This document shows, in pieces, positions 4,904 through 58,054 of a stretch of DNA of 64,000 nucleotides. Below the pieces are notes generated by a model. That model had not been told where the DNA came from. It ran no database searches and saw only the letters and a list, made by a program, of their open reading frames with translations. How positions within the stretch are numbered: the stretch's first letter is position 1; each line of letters opens with the position of its first letter. The translations under genes were made by a program, and so were the position numbers. Source of the stretch: Pseudobacteriovorax antillogorgiicola (GTDB lineage Bacteria > Bdellovibrionota_B > Oligoflexia > Oligoflexales > Oligoflexaceae); contig NZ_FWZT01000008.1 of the NCBI RefSeq assembly GCF_900177345.1, positions 62,001-126,000 on the forward strand, written 5' to 3'.

Positions 4904-5165
4904 TACAATTGATCCGAAGTATAGACTCTAAATGCAAACAATCATGACTATATATTAGAGATCCATCATGACAATGGGTGTGTTGAACCTAGTGAGATTG
5001 GCTCATCGAGTTTGTTAAGATTGTGATGCGGATATTGGATCTTGTTGATCTCCTCAAGTTCAACATCCGATGGACCAGGTAATCCTTACAAGGTTGCCTA
5101 GCAATGGAGTCTCGTGCAATTCTGAGAACAGATTGAAATACCTCCTCGGGTTTAAAAACGCGCAT

Positions 5166-5252
5166 GCAAAGATCTGGCTCGACCATAAGGTCATACAGTT
5201 GCGGGACAGCGTCGGATTCTCACCGGACTTCATTTACATGCACTTATCTTGC
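5166..5252 (-). promoter_or_regulatory. Cobalamin riboswitch aptamer (compact form)
   Basis: Read on the minus strand, the element contains the hallmark core TCCGGTGAGAATCCGA followed by GCTGTCCCGCAACTGT, very close to the cobalamin riboswitch consensus. A short hairpin (GACC TTAT GGTC) comes next, then AGCCAG, the start of the B12 box. The closing P1 stem can form between GCAAGAT at the 5' end and ATCTTTGC at the 3' end with one bulged base. The usual peripheral helices are missing, so this is a small aptamer of about 87 nucleotides. The next gene on this strand is the 7TMR-DISM kinase, whose start is about 260 bases away; no B12 transport or synthesis gene is present. Confidence 0.8.
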
Positions 5253-5291
5253 CTAGGATCCGTGGATCGGCAATGTAGGACAATTGATATT

Positions 5292-51971: not shown

Positions 51972-54014
51972 CTAGGCCACAAGCTTTTTAGGTTTTTTGG
52001 TTATAGCTTCGACTTCTTGGGATTGATCCACCAAGGAAGCCATAGTCTCAGAGATACTATGCACTCCCTCGGATTGCTCTTCGGCCGCTTTGGTAATGGA
52101 AGCCATGAGGTTCTTTACAGTTCCCACCCGATCTACAAGTTCTGTAAGAATTTCGTCGCACCGTACAGCAAGTTCAACACCCTTGGAGACCGTGTTGCTG
52201 CTACGATTTGCCAGCTCGTGGACTTGTTTTTGTGAGTTTCCCACGATGGTATGGATTTCCGTCTGGCTTCTGTCCAGTAGAGCAGAGATCTCACGGGCGG
52301 CATTACCGCTCATCTGTGCGAGGTTGCCGACCTCCTCCGCGACCACTGAAAAACCTTTACCTTGGTCTCCCGCACGAGCGGCTTCCACGGAGGCATTGAA
52401 TGATAGAAGTTTGGTCTGGAAAACGATATCATTGATAATTGTAGTTTTCTGAGAGATATCCTTAATGATAGTCATGATCGTTTCGATATTTTCGTTGCCA
52501 ATTCTCACCTGTTCCACTACCGAAACCACAGCACTCTCGATTTCCTTCATGGACTGTTGCATCTGACTCACTCGCTCCCGACCTTCCGTAGCGATTTGGT
52601 GAGAGGTTTCAGCCTCCTTTTCAGATGCTCTAGCATGACCGACATTCTGATCGACTGTTTCTAGTATTTGATTCAACTCACCCACAGTAGACTCAACAGC
52701 TTCGCTTTGACGGTGGATCATGTGATCCATGGCTTGGCTCTTGGTCTTTAGCTCATTGGTTCGGGTTTCGACAATCGATTCCAGGTTTTTATTGACCCCT
52801 TCGATATTTTTGAGGAGAGACTTGTTTTCGAGGTAGGTTGAAGCGAAAAGACTGCTTGCGACCACCATAATGCAGCTCGTTGCAATGAGCGTCCCAAAGA
52901 AAATGAGGCTCACCGATTGGATCAGACCTAGGGCGAGGAGAATATCATGGATGGAACAGGCAAACATGATGAATTCCCCAAGCAACAACGGTACAGCAAC
53001 ACGATTTTTACGAGCTGCCTGAACCAATACATAGATAAACTGGTAGGAAACAATATTTGCATAGATAAACAAAAACTTCCGAACCCCAAGAAAAGCTTGG
53101 TGGTGGAAGTCGATGGCAAAGTAGACAAAGCATGCAATCAGGACTCCATTGACCGTGAAGTTGAGGCGGTTGAACCATGGATAGAAGCGATAGAAAAACT
53201 GGGCGAAGTAGCCATGGAACATAGCCAAAGAACCGATTCCGGTATAATGGAGAATCTGTAAGGTTTGCGGGTCGACGTGACGAATAAACATATCGCTGGG
53301 AAAGCCATAGAATGGAAATATGGACACTCCTGAAAGACCAGCTATGAGGTACAGCTTAGATTTTACTTTAGCGTAAATAAGAAGAAAAAAGAGTCCAATG
53401 GCCCCAACTACAAAAGCGGAAAGGCTGCGAAACTCACCGCCCCAAAACTGGTAGAAGGATACATAGTCATCTTGGTTTTTGTAGGACAGCATAGTGAAGG
53501 GTAATTGATACACTCCCTTCATGAGGTTTGTGGTGATGCGAAAAGCGATAACCTGTCTTTCTTGGCTTATGGTAAATATGATGGGAATTGGCTGGATCGA
53601 AAAATATTTCTCATAGGAGTTGGATGAGCCTCGTTGGTAGATTTCCTTACCATCGAGAAAGACTTCCACCCCACCCATATAAGCATCCAGGAGGATCGTC
53701 ACCTTCTGACCGATCAATTCGGGGGCAAACACGAAATTACCCCGATACCAACCTACCATGTAAGGGCTCTGCTCGGGATAAGCCTTCTCCCAGCCTCCTG
53801 GAGTCATCACCGTTGTCCACTGAGATGTATCCGCCTCTGGTGACGCGTGACTTGGCTGGTCCGAATTGGTAAACAGCCATCGGCCAGTTAAATCAAGGGG
53901 CTCACTGAGATCCGTAACTTTGATCTCGCACGAGAAGCAGTCTTGTTGTGGCTCTGCGACGAGGCGCGTGGAGTAAACCACTAAGAGAATCATAATGAAT
54001 CTAAAGCATGTCAT
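51972..54014 (-). CDS. Seven-helix receptor with methyl-accepting chemotaxis signalling domain
   Basis: Signal peptide, then a periplasmic jelly-roll domain like a sugar-binding beta-sandwich (LTGRWLFTNSDQPS, VGWYRGNF, VEVFLDGKEIYQRG), seven helices of the 7TMR type (about residues 200-390), a coil, and a cytoplasmic MCP helical hairpin whose tip VFQTKLLSFNASVEAARAGD is canonical. No HAMP domain and no methylation pentapeptide tail. Start at M11 of the frame opening at 54044 because a site AGGG lies upstream there; the longer start lacks one. No che genes nearby. Confidence 0.88.
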   Translation of the reverse strand: MTCFRFIMILLVVYSTRLVAEPQQDCFSCEIKVTDLSEPLDLTGRWLFTNSDQPSHASPEADTSQWTTVMTPGGWEKAYPEQSPYMVGWYRGNFVFAPELIGQKVTILLDAYMGGVEVFLDGKEIYQRGSSNSYEKYFSIQPIPIIFTISQERQVIAFRITTNLMKGVYQLPFTMLSYKNQDDYVSFYQFWGGEFRSLSAFVVGAIGLFFLLIYAKVKSKLYLIAGLSGVSIFPFYGFPSDMFIRHVDPQTLQILHYTGIGSLAMFHGYFAQFFYRFYPWFNRLNFTVNGVLIACFVYFAIDFHHQAFLGVRKFLFIYANIVSYQFIYVLVQAARKNRVAVPLLLGEFIMFACSIHDILLALGLIQSVSLIFFGTLIATSCIMVVASSLFASTYLENKSLLKNIEGVNKNLESIVETRTNELKTKSQAMDHMIHRQSEAVESTVGELNQILETVDQNVGHARASEKEAETSHQIATEGRERVSQMQQSMKEIESAVVSVVEQVRIGNENIETIMTIIKDISQKTTIINDIVFQTKLLSFNASVEAARAGDQGKGFSVVAEEVGNLAQMSGNAAREISALLDRSQTEIHTIVGNSQKQVHELANRSSNTVSKGVELAVRCDEILTELVDRVGTVKNLMASITKAAEEQSEGVHSISETMASLVDQSQEVEAITKKPKKLVA

Positions 54015-54044
54015 GCGTAAAAAGCCCTTGCCTAATTCTTCCAT

Positions 54045-54335
54045 TGAGTTGTCGGAGTCTGGATTGCCATATTTAGGTGACTTGCTGATTCTTTGTTAAA
54101 GGCCTAGTTATTTCGATGGCTTCAGGTGCGATGTCAGTGAGGGGAGTGGCTTGTTTAATTAAAAAATTAGCCCTCATCAAATGATCATCATGCAATATTT
54201 AAAAATAACCTTTGTCCGATTTTTTAATGGGCTTCCATGCAACCCTGTGATTCCCTGATAACCGAATCTGATTGAGGCCTGTGTCAAATTCTGTTATCAC
54301 CGAGCCATAGTTTTTCTTGGGATAAAGGATCTCTT
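54045..54335. promoter_or_regulatory. Divergent region with inverted repeat upstream of the actin-like gene
   Basis: TGATAAC (54256-54262) and GTTATCA (54293-54299) form a perfect 7-bp inverted repeat 30 bases apart, close to the probable promoter of the actin-like operon. AGGA lies seven bases before the ATG at 54336. Upstream is a TGAGGG/CCCTCA pair around 54140-54176 with AT-rich loop. No iterons are seen of the kind used by ParR at plasmid parC. Confidence 0.4.
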
Positions 54336-55424
54336 ATGAATGCAACAACTCTAAAATCACTTCCTGCTTTTATAACTAAAGAACCAAGAAGTTTTTCTGA
54401 ATCTCTCATGGCGAACTCCATTAGCATTAAAGACCAAGGGATTTGGTTGACCGTTGGTGAGGCTGCGCAGATGGTGGCCCCCGATCATAGCCGTGCCTTT
54501 GGTGGTAATTTAAGGCAGCCTAATTTTCGTCGTTTAGTAAAAGCCGCGATCGCCTATACCCTAGGCGCAGGGCGCCATAAACTTGACCTCGCTCTGGCTG
54601 CCAGTCAGCAACACTTCAGCGGATTCACGGACGCCAGCAACAAATTTGATCGTGAGCAACGAAGCATTCTTGAAGAAATTGTCAGGGATATCGAATTTCG
54701 TACTCACCCTTTAGAGGAAACACAACACTGCCAGCTTGAGTTGGAAAATGTTCATCTCTTGTACGAAACTCAAGCTGTGTTACAGGCAGTTCCAAGGGAT
54801 CTTCGCAGCTATATTTTGTGGCAACTTGGCCATGGGGACTTGCAGCAAATTACAATGTACGATGGTCGCCCCATCCCTAATACACATGCACGGGTCGAAG
54901 GCTTATCGTCAGCAATTCGAGACTTTGCTCAGTATGTCAAGCTTCCATTGGCCGATGCGGTGATTGCTTGGCAAAATGGCCAGAAGGCGCGGAGTGATTC
55001 TCTAGAATCTGAAACCAGTGACATTTTTGAAGAGAAACAACGGGCGATTCGTGAGTACTTTGCGACGGCAACTCAGGATCTCCTTAATCTTAACGAGCCC
55101 TACAAGCAGCGTTCTGTTGCGATTGTATTGTCTGGCGGTGGTGCAAAAGATCCGATGGTCGTGGACTGTTTGCGACAGGAGATCGAAAGTGGTGGTCATT
55201 ACAAACTATTTGCAATCGATCAACTTCCTCACAGCACGCCCGAGCTTCAGGACCCTGTTTTTACCTGCGTTCAAGGCTTGCTTAAAACAGCAAGCCTGGC
55301 TCTCGATATTGGCAATTCGTCCTTGAAAACGGGCTTTGTCAGTCGCGAAACCGATGAGCCTTACAGGCAACCTATGATGCAGGATAATCTGTTTGGACAG
55401 GTAAGCTCTACAGGGATGGCGTAA
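54336..55424 (+). CDS. Actin-like ATPase, ParM type, apparently circularly permuted
   Basis: 362 residues. The actin motifs are present but in rotated order: VGEAA (residues 40-44), connect-1-like ETQA (144-147), phosphate-2 QLGHGD (163-168; the usual first Asp is Gln), adenosine loop LSGGGA (265-270), DPVFTCVQGLL (306-316, like ParM's end), and then phosphate-1 LALDIGNSSLKTGF (321-334) at the C-terminus, where all known ParM/MreB/DnaK families have it at the N-terminus. No in-frame extension upstream contains a second copy, and a stop lies about 22 codons before the ATG. The stop overlaps the next gene's start. Filament-forming role inferred. Confidence 0.7.
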   Translation: MNATTLKSLPAFITKEPRSFSESLMANSISIKDQGIWLTVGEAAQMVAPDHSRAFGGNLRQPNFRRLVKAAIAYTLGAGRHKLDLALAASQQHFSGFTDASNKFDREQRSILEEIVRDIEFRTHPLEETQHCQLELENVHLLYETQAVLQAVPRDLRSYILWQLGHGDLQQITMYDGRPIPNTHARVEGLSSAIRDFAQYVKLPLADAVIAWQNGQKARSDSLESETSDIFEEKQRAIREYFATATQDLLNLNEPYKQRSVAIVLSGGGAKDPMVVDCLRQEIESGGHYKLFAIDQLPHSTPELQDPVFTCVQGLLKTASLALDIGNSSLKTGFVSRETDEPYRQPMMQDNLFGQVSSTGMA

Positions 55425-55813
55425 TGATGACTGAACAGCAACTGATTATTCGAATCGCGAACTCGGGTCGTCAGCAGGATTTAATTGATATCTTGCTGAC
55501 TGAGGACGAATCTCAGTTGCCGTTCTCTCTACCAGATTTAGTCACGTGGCCTACTGGCCAGCGAGCCTGCTCAGAAAGGGCGATTCTACTAATTCGTGCT
55601 GGCCTGCGATACTTGGAAGCTAAGCAAGAGCAAAACCCCGAAGTACCAAGGGCCAAGCTAAAAGAGTGTGAACCGTCACCTCAGCCGCAAGCAGTGGCTA
55701 ACCCACCAAGCCCGGAGCCTCAAGTGATGCAACCAGCGGTGGCTCCCCAAACAAAACCAAAGAGCGAGGTCAAGGCTGGTCGTACGGACTTTGACATTTC
55801 CCTATTCCAATAG
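55424..55813 (+). CDS. Small adaptor-like protein, ParR-like architecture
   Basis: 129 residues. A helical N-terminal 65 residues (IIRIANSGRQQDLIDILL, RACSERAILLIRAGLRYLEA), a proline/glutamine-rich linker (about 75-115), and a short C-terminal motif RTDFDISLFQ. ParR proteins have the same plan: DNA-binding head, flexible linker, and C-terminal helix that grips the ParM filament end. No sequence family recognised, so the role is an inference from layout and one-base overlap with the actin-like gene. Confidence 0.7.
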   Translation: MMTEQQLIIRIANSGRQQDLIDILLTEDESQLPFSLPDLVTWPTGQRACSERAILLIRAGLRYLEAKQEQNPEVPRAKLKECEPSPQPQAVANPPSPEPQVMQPAVAPQTKPKSEVKAGRTDFDISLFQ

Positions 55814-55824
55814 GAAGCTTTGCG

Positions 55825-56169
55825 ATGAAGCGCTATATCAGGCAAGAGACTTTGGAAACCATAGCTCGCTTTATGAAGCTGTGTTTTCTTGAAGAGGAAG
55901 ATCAGCAAGGTGTGGCCCGGCTCGTCAGCGTTCACAACGATCACCAAGAAGCGCAGCAGGCACTAGAAAGGCGGTATCAGGGATTCGCTTCGGAAGCTCA
56001 TTTCGAGGGCTCGCTTCGCGAGGTTTTAGCTTATGTTGCTCATCGTGAATTTGACACCCGGTTTTCCTGGCCGTTACTTCGCGTCTTGAGTAGTCAAGAC
56101 GTTTTGGAATACTATGGGCTTTCGGCTTTTTTAGATCTGATGCCGATGCAGGAGTTTCCTTTAAGTTAG
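55825..56169 (+). CDS. Small helical protein of the actin-like operon
   Basis: 114 residues, helical throughout, with many Glu, Arg and Leu and no motif I recognise; AGGAAG upstream of the ATG. It starts 12 bases after the ParR-like gene and lies 18 bases before the lipid kinase gene, so it belongs to the same operon. Confidence 0.7.
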   Translation: MKRYIRQETLETIARFMKLCFLEEEDQQGVARLVSVHNDHQEAQQALERRYQGFASEAHFEGSLREVLAYVAHREFDTRFSWPLLRVLSSQDVLEYYGLSAFLDLMPMQEFPLS

Positions 56170-56187
56170 TCTTTGGTAGGAGTCGTT

Positions 56188-57075
56188 GTGGATAAGGTTG
56201 TCGTTTTGAATCCCCATGCTGGAGATCACGATCGAGATCTAGAATCTTGGAAAGAATTGTTACCCTGGGACATCAGAGTAAGTCAGGAGCCGGGCGATGC
56301 TGGGCGTATCAGTCGCGAACTTGCGGAAAACGGTGTTCCTCAGATTATTGTAGGTGGTGGTGATGGCACCATTCGGGAAGTCGCTGATAGCCTAATGAGC
56401 CTTGCGAAAGAGAAACGTCCTCAGCTCGCTGTTCTACCATTAGGCACGGCCAATGACTTTTGTAAATCTATCCATATTGGTCCTGAATTAGAAACTGCGA
56501 TCAAGGCTATCAAGGAAGGTCTGTCGGTTCCGCTAGATGTGATTCAAGTAACCCTTAATGATAAAACCTTCTATGGGATGAACGTCGCTTGCGTAGGGTT
56601 TGTGCCCGAGATGACCAAGCGCGTCAGCGGCAGCGATAAGGAGCTTTGGGGTTCTTTAGTCTACGCTTTGAAAAGTGTCGAAACAGCCCAGGAAAGTCGG
56701 TGCTATCACCTAGCAGCTCAGCTTGATGGTGAATCCTATGAATGGGATTCATGGAATATCGTCTTGGGCAATGGGCGATTTGCAGGCGGGGGAGTTCCAA
56801 TTGCTCCCGAGGCAGAACTTGATGACGGATTGCTGGATGTCTATGTGTTTAATGGTGAAACAAAGCTCGACTTTTTGGTCGAGGGAGTTCTGTCGCTCCT
56901 TGGGCAACATAGCCAATCCGTAGGAGTGGAAAGCCTAAAAGGCAAGTCATTAAAACTGAACAGCGATCTGTCGTTACCCATTTCGCTGGATGGCGAGCTA
57001 CTGGGTGAAGGGGACGTGGAGTTTCAACTCATGACAGGTGCTTTAGATGTTGTGGTGGGTCAAAAGACCCAATGA
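56188..57075 (+). CDS. Diacylglycerol/lipid kinase, YegS/DgkB type
   Basis: Phosphorylates a lipid hydroxyl, usually diacylglycerol. ATP-binding loop VGGGDGTIREVAD and VLPLGTANDFCKS, C-terminal LDGELLGEG and DDGLLDVYV are full signatures. 295 residues. GTG start chosen because TAGGAG lies six bases upstream. Intact, unlike the broken homologue at 11938-12710. Last gene of the actin-like operon; a link between filament and membrane lipid is only a guess. Confidence 0.92.
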   Translation: MDKVVVLNPHAGDHDRDLESWKELLPWDIRVSQEPGDAGRISRELAENGVPQIIVGGGDGTIREVADSLMSLAKEKRPQLAVLPLGTANDFCKSIHIGPELETAIKAIKEGLSVPLDVIQVTLNDKTFYGMNVACVGFVPEMTKRVSGSDKELWGSLVYALKSVETAQESRCYHLAAQLDGESYEWDSWNIVLGNGRFAGGGVPIAPEAELDDGLLDVYVFNGETKLDFLVEGVLSLLGQHSQSVGVESLKGKSLKLNSDLSLPISLDGELLGEGDVEFQLMTGALDVVVGQKTQ

Positions 57076-57658
57076 GGCGTATATCTCCTTGAAATGTTTT
57101 AATATTTAGCTGGGTTGTTTACCTACTTACAACGTAATTAATTTTCTTTCAGCAGACTCTCACCCGCGAAGGCTGCCGCCACTCAGGCCCCCGCCACAAT
57201 CAACTTTAACTCATTAAAGTTTGTAATATCAGTGTTATAGCTCACCTTGCGAGGCTCCGTCGGGGCTAGCAGACAGCGTCGTTTGCAGCCTCGATGACTC
57301 GTGCTGTTCGAGTAGGATGGCATGCCCTTATGAATATTCGAAAAAATGGTATTTACCATCACAAAAATGACAATTAATATCGGTGTGGAATTCATCTTGT
57401 AAAAATGTCTTAGCGACGTTATTTACAGTTTGGGAAACACGATAAATCTATAACATGTTGAAAAATAAATTAAATTAGCTTATCCCAGATGGGCAGACAT
57501 AACGAGTGTGGCGGGATTGAATTAGGAATTCCTAGTTAAAACAGCGCAGTATATTTTTTTGTAAACGTCACAAACATGGGAACGTACCTTGCAAACTCTA
57601 AGGCAGAGATTGCACGATCTCGCAACAACAAGTTGAATGTGGCAGCAGGAGCTAATAA
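57076..57658. other. 583-base gene-free region with hairpins
   Basis: Contains a perfect 8-bp stem AACTTTAA/TTAAAGTT at 57202-57221, a CGAGGCT/AGCCTCG pair around 57248-57294, and a 12-bp palindrome TAGGAATTCCTA at about 57525-57537, 120 bases before the LuxR-type gene. A 70-residue minus ORF inside lacks a ribosome-binding site and was not called. No tRNA, rRNA or known riboswitch fits. Confidence 0.35.
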
Positions 57659-57964
57659 ATGGATGAGTTGATAAAGAAGTTCTGTGATTCTTACTCCCTG
57701 ACAAATAAGGAGCAAAGTATTGTCTTTGCACTCGTGTCGGGATACGCGCAAAGTAGCGATCTGGCAGAAGAGTTTGGTATCTCTGAAAACACGGTGCGGG
57801 TTCATATCAAGAATATAAACGCCAAGCTCCGGACCAACTCGAAAGCAGAGATCTTATCCAAGTTTGTACGCTATTTGTATACAAGCTTAAAAGGTCCCGA
57901 ACTTGATGCTAAGGATACGCCCTACCTCCAATCCCCTCATGGTCAAAATCACCTCGAAATCTAG
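57659..57964 (+). CDS. Stand-alone LuxR-type (GerE) helix-turn-helix regulator
   Basis: 101 residues with LuxR C-terminal HTH: LTNKEQSIVFALVSGYAQ, SDLAEEFGISENTVRVHIKN, INAKLRTNSKAEIL. No receiver or ligand domain, as in GerE. A palindrome upstream may be its target. It is followed by two hairpins and then the barrel gene; target genes are unknown. Confidence 0.9.
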   Translation: MDELIKKFCDSYSLTNKEQSIVFALVSGYAQSSDLAEEFGISENTVRVHIKNINAKLRTNSKAEILSKFVRYLYTSLKGPELDAKDTPYLQSPHGQNHLEI

Positions 57965-57980
57965 TCCCAATTCCTATCGC

Positions 57981-58054
57981 CAGCCTCTCTATGGAGGCTG
58001 TCTTAAGGCGTATCAGTGCTAAGCAATAAGAGCCTCTCCTTGTGGGAGGCTTTT
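57981..58054 (+). terminator. Two hairpins after the LuxR-type gene, second Rho-independent
   Basis: CAGCCTC/GAGGCTG at 57981-58000 is a perfect stem without T-run. AGCCTCTC/GGGAGGCT at 58031-58051 has one G-U pair and is followed by TTTT, a proper terminator. Confidence 0.75.

Follow-up and report, generated by a model that had tools for sequence, protein, structure and literature searches.

In actin, MreB, ParM, and Hsp70 alike, the phosphate-1 hairpin, which grips ATP, is assumed to open the chain. The locus described here raises the question of how to read a gene in which the other motifs of a ParM-type actin follow one another in order and phosphate-1 appears only after them. The open reading frame, at 54336..55424 of the window (the whole 64,000-nucleotide stretch of Pseudobacteriovorax antillogorgiicola DNA that was analysed), encodes a protein of 362 amino acids; it lies on the plus strand, as do all the operon features given below. 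Its identification as a circularly permuted ParM/Alp-type actin rests on the reading frame itself, colinear homologues, an AlphaFold2 model, and matches in the PDB to ParM, Ta0583, and Alp7A. A preliminary description, made from the sequence alone, had proposed that the gene was permuted so that the old termini are joined and new ends lie after the first beta-hairpin, which is supported here by rotation, a block-move control, and the predicted fold. The permuted order is shown in sequence, and such an actin-fold protein is apparently undescribed.

Motif order and the phosphate-2 loop

The motif series opens with VGEAA at residues 40-44 and continues with YETQA (residues 143-147; 54762..54776), whose Glu144 is invariant in the alignment and which, from family knowledge, we take to be the likely equivalent of ParM Glu148. 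The phosphate-2 loop WQLGHGD (residues 162-168; 54819..54839) carries Gln163 in place of the usual Asp and an invariant Asp168 five residues on. The adenosine motif LSGGGA, identified by sequence and alignment, occupies residues 265-270 (55128..55145), and DPVF (306-309) and GLLK (314-317) lead into phosphate-1, SLALDIGNSSLKTGF, at residues 320-334 near the C-terminus. The preliminary description thus held as to the motifs and their order, with phosphate-1 beginning one residue earlier than the 321-334 it had given. The relocated hairpin as a whole, SLALDIGNSSLKTGFVS (residues 320-336; 55293..55343), is supported by two strands in the model, by hhalign, and by the block-move control. Behind it lies a low-confidence tail (residues 338-362; 55347..55421; pLDDT below 50), of a kind seen only in the two Pseudobacteriovoracaceae-type copies and missing from the other aligned members. 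At the opposite end, near the permutation junction, the new N-terminus LKSLPAFI (residues 6-13; 54351..54374; model strands 4-10 and 12-15) corresponds to the strand next after the phosphate-1 hairpin of an ordinary ParM, and the rotated profile aligns through this region to conventional ParM.

No other copy of the motif could be located. None lies upstream of the ATG, where the frame extends back by some 20 codons only; when 52001-58000 was searched for the motif in six frames, the C-terminal copy alone came back; and tblastn of twelve permuted relatives found no second copy within the window. The earlier claim that no upstream in-frame copy exists accordingly held, and an artefact of frameshift, truncation, or tandem copies was ruled out by the six-frame and tblastn searches. 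The gene is single-copy in the 7.3 Mb genome. Among the homologues found, which had been named as a possible source of refutation, none carries an N-terminal phosphate-1. In all proteins of the family to which the window actin belongs (type A), the chain ends 13-40 residues past the start of the motif, and none of the four C-terminal residues D324, G326, N327, and K331 varies among the eight aligned members, so that the C-terminal phosphate-1 is not a matter of chance. The ASKHA criterion of an N-terminal phosphate-1 is not met by the window actin, in which the motif is found solely at 320-334.

The phosphate-1, phosphate-2, and adenosine motifs are all present and conserved in type A, with phosphate-2 aberrant. 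The usual Asp (as in LIDIG of the conventional ParMs in alignment A10) is replaced by Gln in the window, Pseudobacteriovorax MAG, Pigmentibacter, and Aeromonas proteins and by His in the Silvanigrellales phage-plasmid copies, while an Asp five residues later is common to all. The replacement noted in the preliminary description thus holds family-wide as Gln or His; the altered hydrolysis that it had read into the change remains an inference only, without hydrolysis data. A Pfam match of the window protein to PRMT5 (E 0.0012, below cut-off) is missing from its relatives and was set aside as chance.

Rotated profiles and the predicted fold

The permutation was assessed by moving the C-terminal phosphate-1 block to the front of each protein and matching the result to Pfam ALP_N (PF17989) or to conventional ParMs. 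The ALP_N match was improved by rotation in 8/8 permuted proteins tested and extended to the start of the model; rotation was a check that the preliminary description had proposed. Native type-A proteins gave weak matches from model position 28 or later only; once rotated, all matched from position 1 or 2, with E-values better by two to five orders of magnitude. The window protein, unreported in native form, reached E 0.0099 (16.5 bits), and the remaining values moved from 0.0034 to 1.9e-5 (Silv6), from 0.021 to 9.3e-6 (Pigm), from 0.015 to 5.3e-7 (Aer9), from 0.0018 to 9.5e-8 (Aer11), and from 4.7e-4 to 3.3e-8 (Aer8). The Pigmentibacter protein and the three Aeromonas proteins exceed the curated ALP_N cut-off of 26.3 bits only when rotated, and Silv6 reaches 25.3.

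A profile comparison against three conventional ParMs from the same class (alignment A10; Silvanigrellales) gave the same picture. In hhalign, solely the C-terminal columns 322-338 of the native family align, to residues 3-19, whereas the rotated family aligns over columns 2-127 to residues 3-122 (E 4.7e-4), the score rising from 20.5 to 37.5 with the C-terminal block in front. When each of the 157 other 18-column blocks was put in front in turn, the mean score was 20.7 (sd 0.7) and the maximum 25.7. A sequence search of the PDB with native and rotated profiles returned no actin match either way and cannot discriminate between the two orders because the sequences are too diverged.

Prediction of the fold, a check named beforehand, was performed with AlphaFold2 from a five-sequence alignment without templates. 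The resulting model (pLDDT 84, pTM 0.82) confidently predicts the two-lobed nucleotide-binding core of actin and Hsp70, including the hairpin strands 321-324 and 329-335, with disorder restricted to the tail. Foldseek yielded 779 matches in the PDB at E 0.001 or better, headed by pCBH ParM (E 1.1e-11), Ta0583, Bacillus thuringiensis ParM, and Alp7A, with R1 ParM lower. TM-scores were about 0.6; the Foldseek alignment is sequential, and the moved hairpin is therefore not scored. R1 ParM is more distant from the window actin than the ALP_N/pCBH-ParM branch is, a placement that refines the preliminary description, as do the ParR-like operon partner and the family on phage-plasmids and plasmids described below.

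Relatives, carriers, and operon partners

The permuted order is common to all type-A homologues found. The nearest, from a Pseudobacteriovorax MAG, is colinear with 73% identity and the same motif order, and colinear homologues on Silvanigrellales phage-plasmids share 35-43% identity, with 36-37% in three genomes of the same class. These genomes we take to be Silvanigrellales, an inference from two contigs equal to IMG/VR records and from proteins closest to that group; three phage-plasmid-type contigs of Silvanigrellales show the permuted order. Among closed plasmids, nine matches were obtained: eight on Aeromonas plasmids, which measure 190-373 kb (actin identity 31-32%), and one on pGTC16762-3 of Pigmentibacter ruber (Silvanigrellales). 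One metagenome viral contig carries a further homologue with the same motif order. Phage records and other viral contigs held no relatives beyond three loci. The occurrence of the same rearranged gene on phage-plasmids and large Aeromonas plasmids marks it as a real, inherited variant of plasmid-segregation actins, and purifying selection is indicated by two phage-plasmid copies (dN 0.048, dS 2.12). In Aeromonas media pE31A, an ISKpn9-type insertion sequence splits the gene (L010:4288-6624).

Given their phage structural genes, both a 63-kb Silvanigrellales contig (terminase, portal, protease, sheath, tape-measure, and baseplate genes) and the circular 44.8-kb pGTC16762-3 (baseplate and tail genes) are phage-plasmids. 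ParA and ParB_N genes lie side by side on the former and ParA-like genes are present on Aeromonas plasmids; partition on these elements may therefore not depend on the actin alone. On pGTC16762-3, no ParA or ParB_N match was found, and the permuted actin is thereby the one segregation candidate recognised there. Pigmentibacter ruber also carries a conventional ParM, on a 140-kb plasmid (L038:1989-3065).

A search of the class with ALP_N revealed a second permuted subfamily (type B), at L023:1495-2505 and L021:1480-2508, in which phosphate-1 is likewise last, the phosphate-2 loop reads SIGFGT, and a small gene follows each actin. Rotation improved the ALP_N E-values of the two proteins from 1.2e-4 to 4.2e-8 and from 1.6e-6 to 2e-7. 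Types A and B align colinearly but weakly and are parted by long branches in the tree, and no type B protein was found in plasmids. Whether one permutation event or two gave rise to them cannot be distinguished from these data.

A small gene lies directly downstream of every permuted actin, with an overlap or gap of a few bases and little sequence conservation. In the window it spans 55424..55813 (129 aa) and shares one base with the actin stop codon (TAATG). Its product ends in DFDISLFQ, and several of the small downstream genes end in such a peptide or one of the DFLSLLK type. The window product matches no Pfam family, and its AlphaFold2 model is poor (pTM 0.35), with confidence too low for a fold search. 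Its designation as a ParR-like adaptor, likely to bind DNA, thus rests on position and layout only and is unproven.

Repeat arrays are clear at some loci. On the phage-plasmid locus L032, six of the eight GCATAAATA sites of a 20-kb stretch (0.8 expected over the full 20 kb) fall in the 160 bp that precede the actin; the iteron cluster itself lies immediately upstream of the gene at L032:4404-4539 (G057 contig C8), on a contractile-tailed phage-plasmid. The Aeromonas caviae plasmid pSS332-218k has nine TTTGTGTGAA sites just behind the adaptor gene, several arranged as TTCACACAAATTTGTGTGAA palindromes; these palindromes, four to five in number, occupy L009:7490-8018, a stretch without annotated genes. 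Arrays are clear at L032/L006 and L009, weak or absent at several other loci, and were not found in the window or Aer8.

At the window locus, a third operon gene (55825..56169; 114 aa) is conserved in the Pseudobacteriovorax MAG only (BLASTP 28% identity, E 3e-13), although the genes farther out differ between the two. Ten larger window open reading frames that were scanned are signalling, metabolic, or unnamed, none being phage or plasmid, and no iterons were found near the actin. The contig measures 280 kb, and the 278 kb of it that were read yielded no tRNA, which leaves unsettled whether this copy is chromosomal or resides on a large plasmid. The role of the window copy is less certain given the lack of an evident mobile element and of iterons and the conserved third gene; it probably descends from a system of the kind carried by the plasmids and phage-plasmids and has become resident, its repurposing being no more than plausible. 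In the MAG, a 426-aa Hsp70-like open reading frame sits two genes upstream of the permuted actin (L002:1728-3008) and is missing at the window locus. Elsewhere in the window, a minus-strand cobalamin riboswitch was detected at 5148-5256 (Rfam RF00174; score 32.2 bits, cut-off 31.5).

A probable permuted segregation actin and its rivals

What the data show directly is that the order is permuted in sequence, that it has been inherited across lineages, that the protein is predicted to take an actin fold, that it belongs to an operon, and that some loci carry repeat arrays. The likely interpretation is a segregation actin of the ParM type (ParMRC) with a permuted gene and a ParR-like partner; nucleotide binding, polymerisation, and the adaptor and centromere functions are inferred without biochemistry. 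In the proposed mechanism, the old first strand would run straight on from the old C-terminal helix, and the new chain ends would lie in the beta2-beta3 loop of subdomain IA (second to third strand), the phosphate-1 hairpin presumably keeping its usual place in the fold. Most probably, the permuted actin would bind ATP and polymerise, the downstream small protein would act as a ParR-like adaptor on a repeat-type centromere, and the filaments would push replicated phage-plasmids or plasmids apart.

The ALP_N-branch actins pCBH ParM (6ixw/6izr), Ta0583, and Alp7A share with the permuted family the actin core, the nucleotide motifs, and, after rotation, ALP_N homology, but the permuted family has the phosphate-1 hairpin last and the phosphate-2 Asp replaced by Gln or His. 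Type II ParMRC partition (plasmids R1 and pSK41) resembles the permuted loci in having a small adaptor-like gene at once behind the actin gene and, as regards some of these loci, in the repeat arrays, whereas here the actin is permuted, the adaptor lacks detectable ParR homology, and the array lies upstream in Silvanigrellales and behind the adaptor in Aeromonas. AlpC and AlpA of the Corynebacterium prophage CGP3 (PMC4446434) are similarly a phage-borne actin and DNA-binding adaptor, although the permuted actin sits on extrachromosomal contractile-tailed phage-plasmids and permutation is not known in AlpC/AlpA. FcmB of filamentous cyanobacteria is derived from a ParM-type actin (PMC12645912, PMC12270681); FcmB/FcmC of Nostoc and the chromosomal cParMs resemble the window copy in pairing a ParM-derived actin with a small partner off-plasmid, and permutation is unmentioned in those papers.

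That chance, a wrong gene model, or faulty assembly placed phosphate-1 at the C-terminus of what is a truncated ordinary ParM is all but excluded. A truncated ParM would have the same N-terminal start, but separate assemblies and closed plasmids from different phyla repeat the order, the true block alone matches ParM when put in front, the D, G, N, and K residues are invariant, and no other copy lies nearby. A non-partition role, whether in phage DNA positioning during lytic growth (as for AlpC) or as an aid to conjugation, would fit carriers that include contractile-tailed phage-plasmids, Aeromonas copies located between traF/traH and mobI/mobH or near transfer genes, and the ParA/ParB genes of some elements. 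It is nonetheless unlikely in view of the Pigmentibacter plasmid devoid of ParA or ParB_N matches and of the ParMRC layout formed by actin, small gene, and repeats.

For the window copy alone, a further possibility is a chromosomal cytoskeletal protein that once served in a segregation system and, in the manner of FcmB, has been repurposed, the third gene supplying its new partner. In favour are the absence of phage or plasmid genes among the scanned neighbours and of iterons, the retention of the third gene while the outer flanks differ, and the precedent of chromosomal ParM-derived actins (PMC12645912, PMC12270681). Against it, a large plasmid is not excluded by the tRNA-free 278 kb, and the adaptor gene and its C-terminal peptide are retained; the balance tips slightly against this rival.

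With the permuted segregation actin as the preferred reading, a bolder version, towards which we lean without firm commitment, regards these proteins as the first natural circular permutants among actins, forming an old cytomotive filament family with C-terminal phosphate-1 and coupled loss of the phosphate-2 Asp, in at least two diverged subfamilies (A and B) across Bdellovibrionota and Gammaproteobacteria, and probably arising from one event at the beta2-beta3 loop. No description of a permuted actin, ParM, or MreB was found in the open-access literature searched, which comprised 5.4 million papers; subscription journals and preprints fell mostly outside its scope, so this is not proof, and the permuted ParM-like actin is best called an apparently undescribed variant of known plasmid-segregation actins. 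Searches and gene annotation lean on an N-terminal phosphate-1, and permuted actins are labelled 'hypothetical' in plasmid records. A natural permutation reveals which chain connections are dispensable to a polymerising actin fold and offers new free ends for the tagging of filaments, and the altered catalytic loop that accompanies it is directly testable. Large Aeromonas plasmids that have transfer genes, pMCR5_045096 among them, carry the family, which is therefore relevant to how such plasmids are kept.
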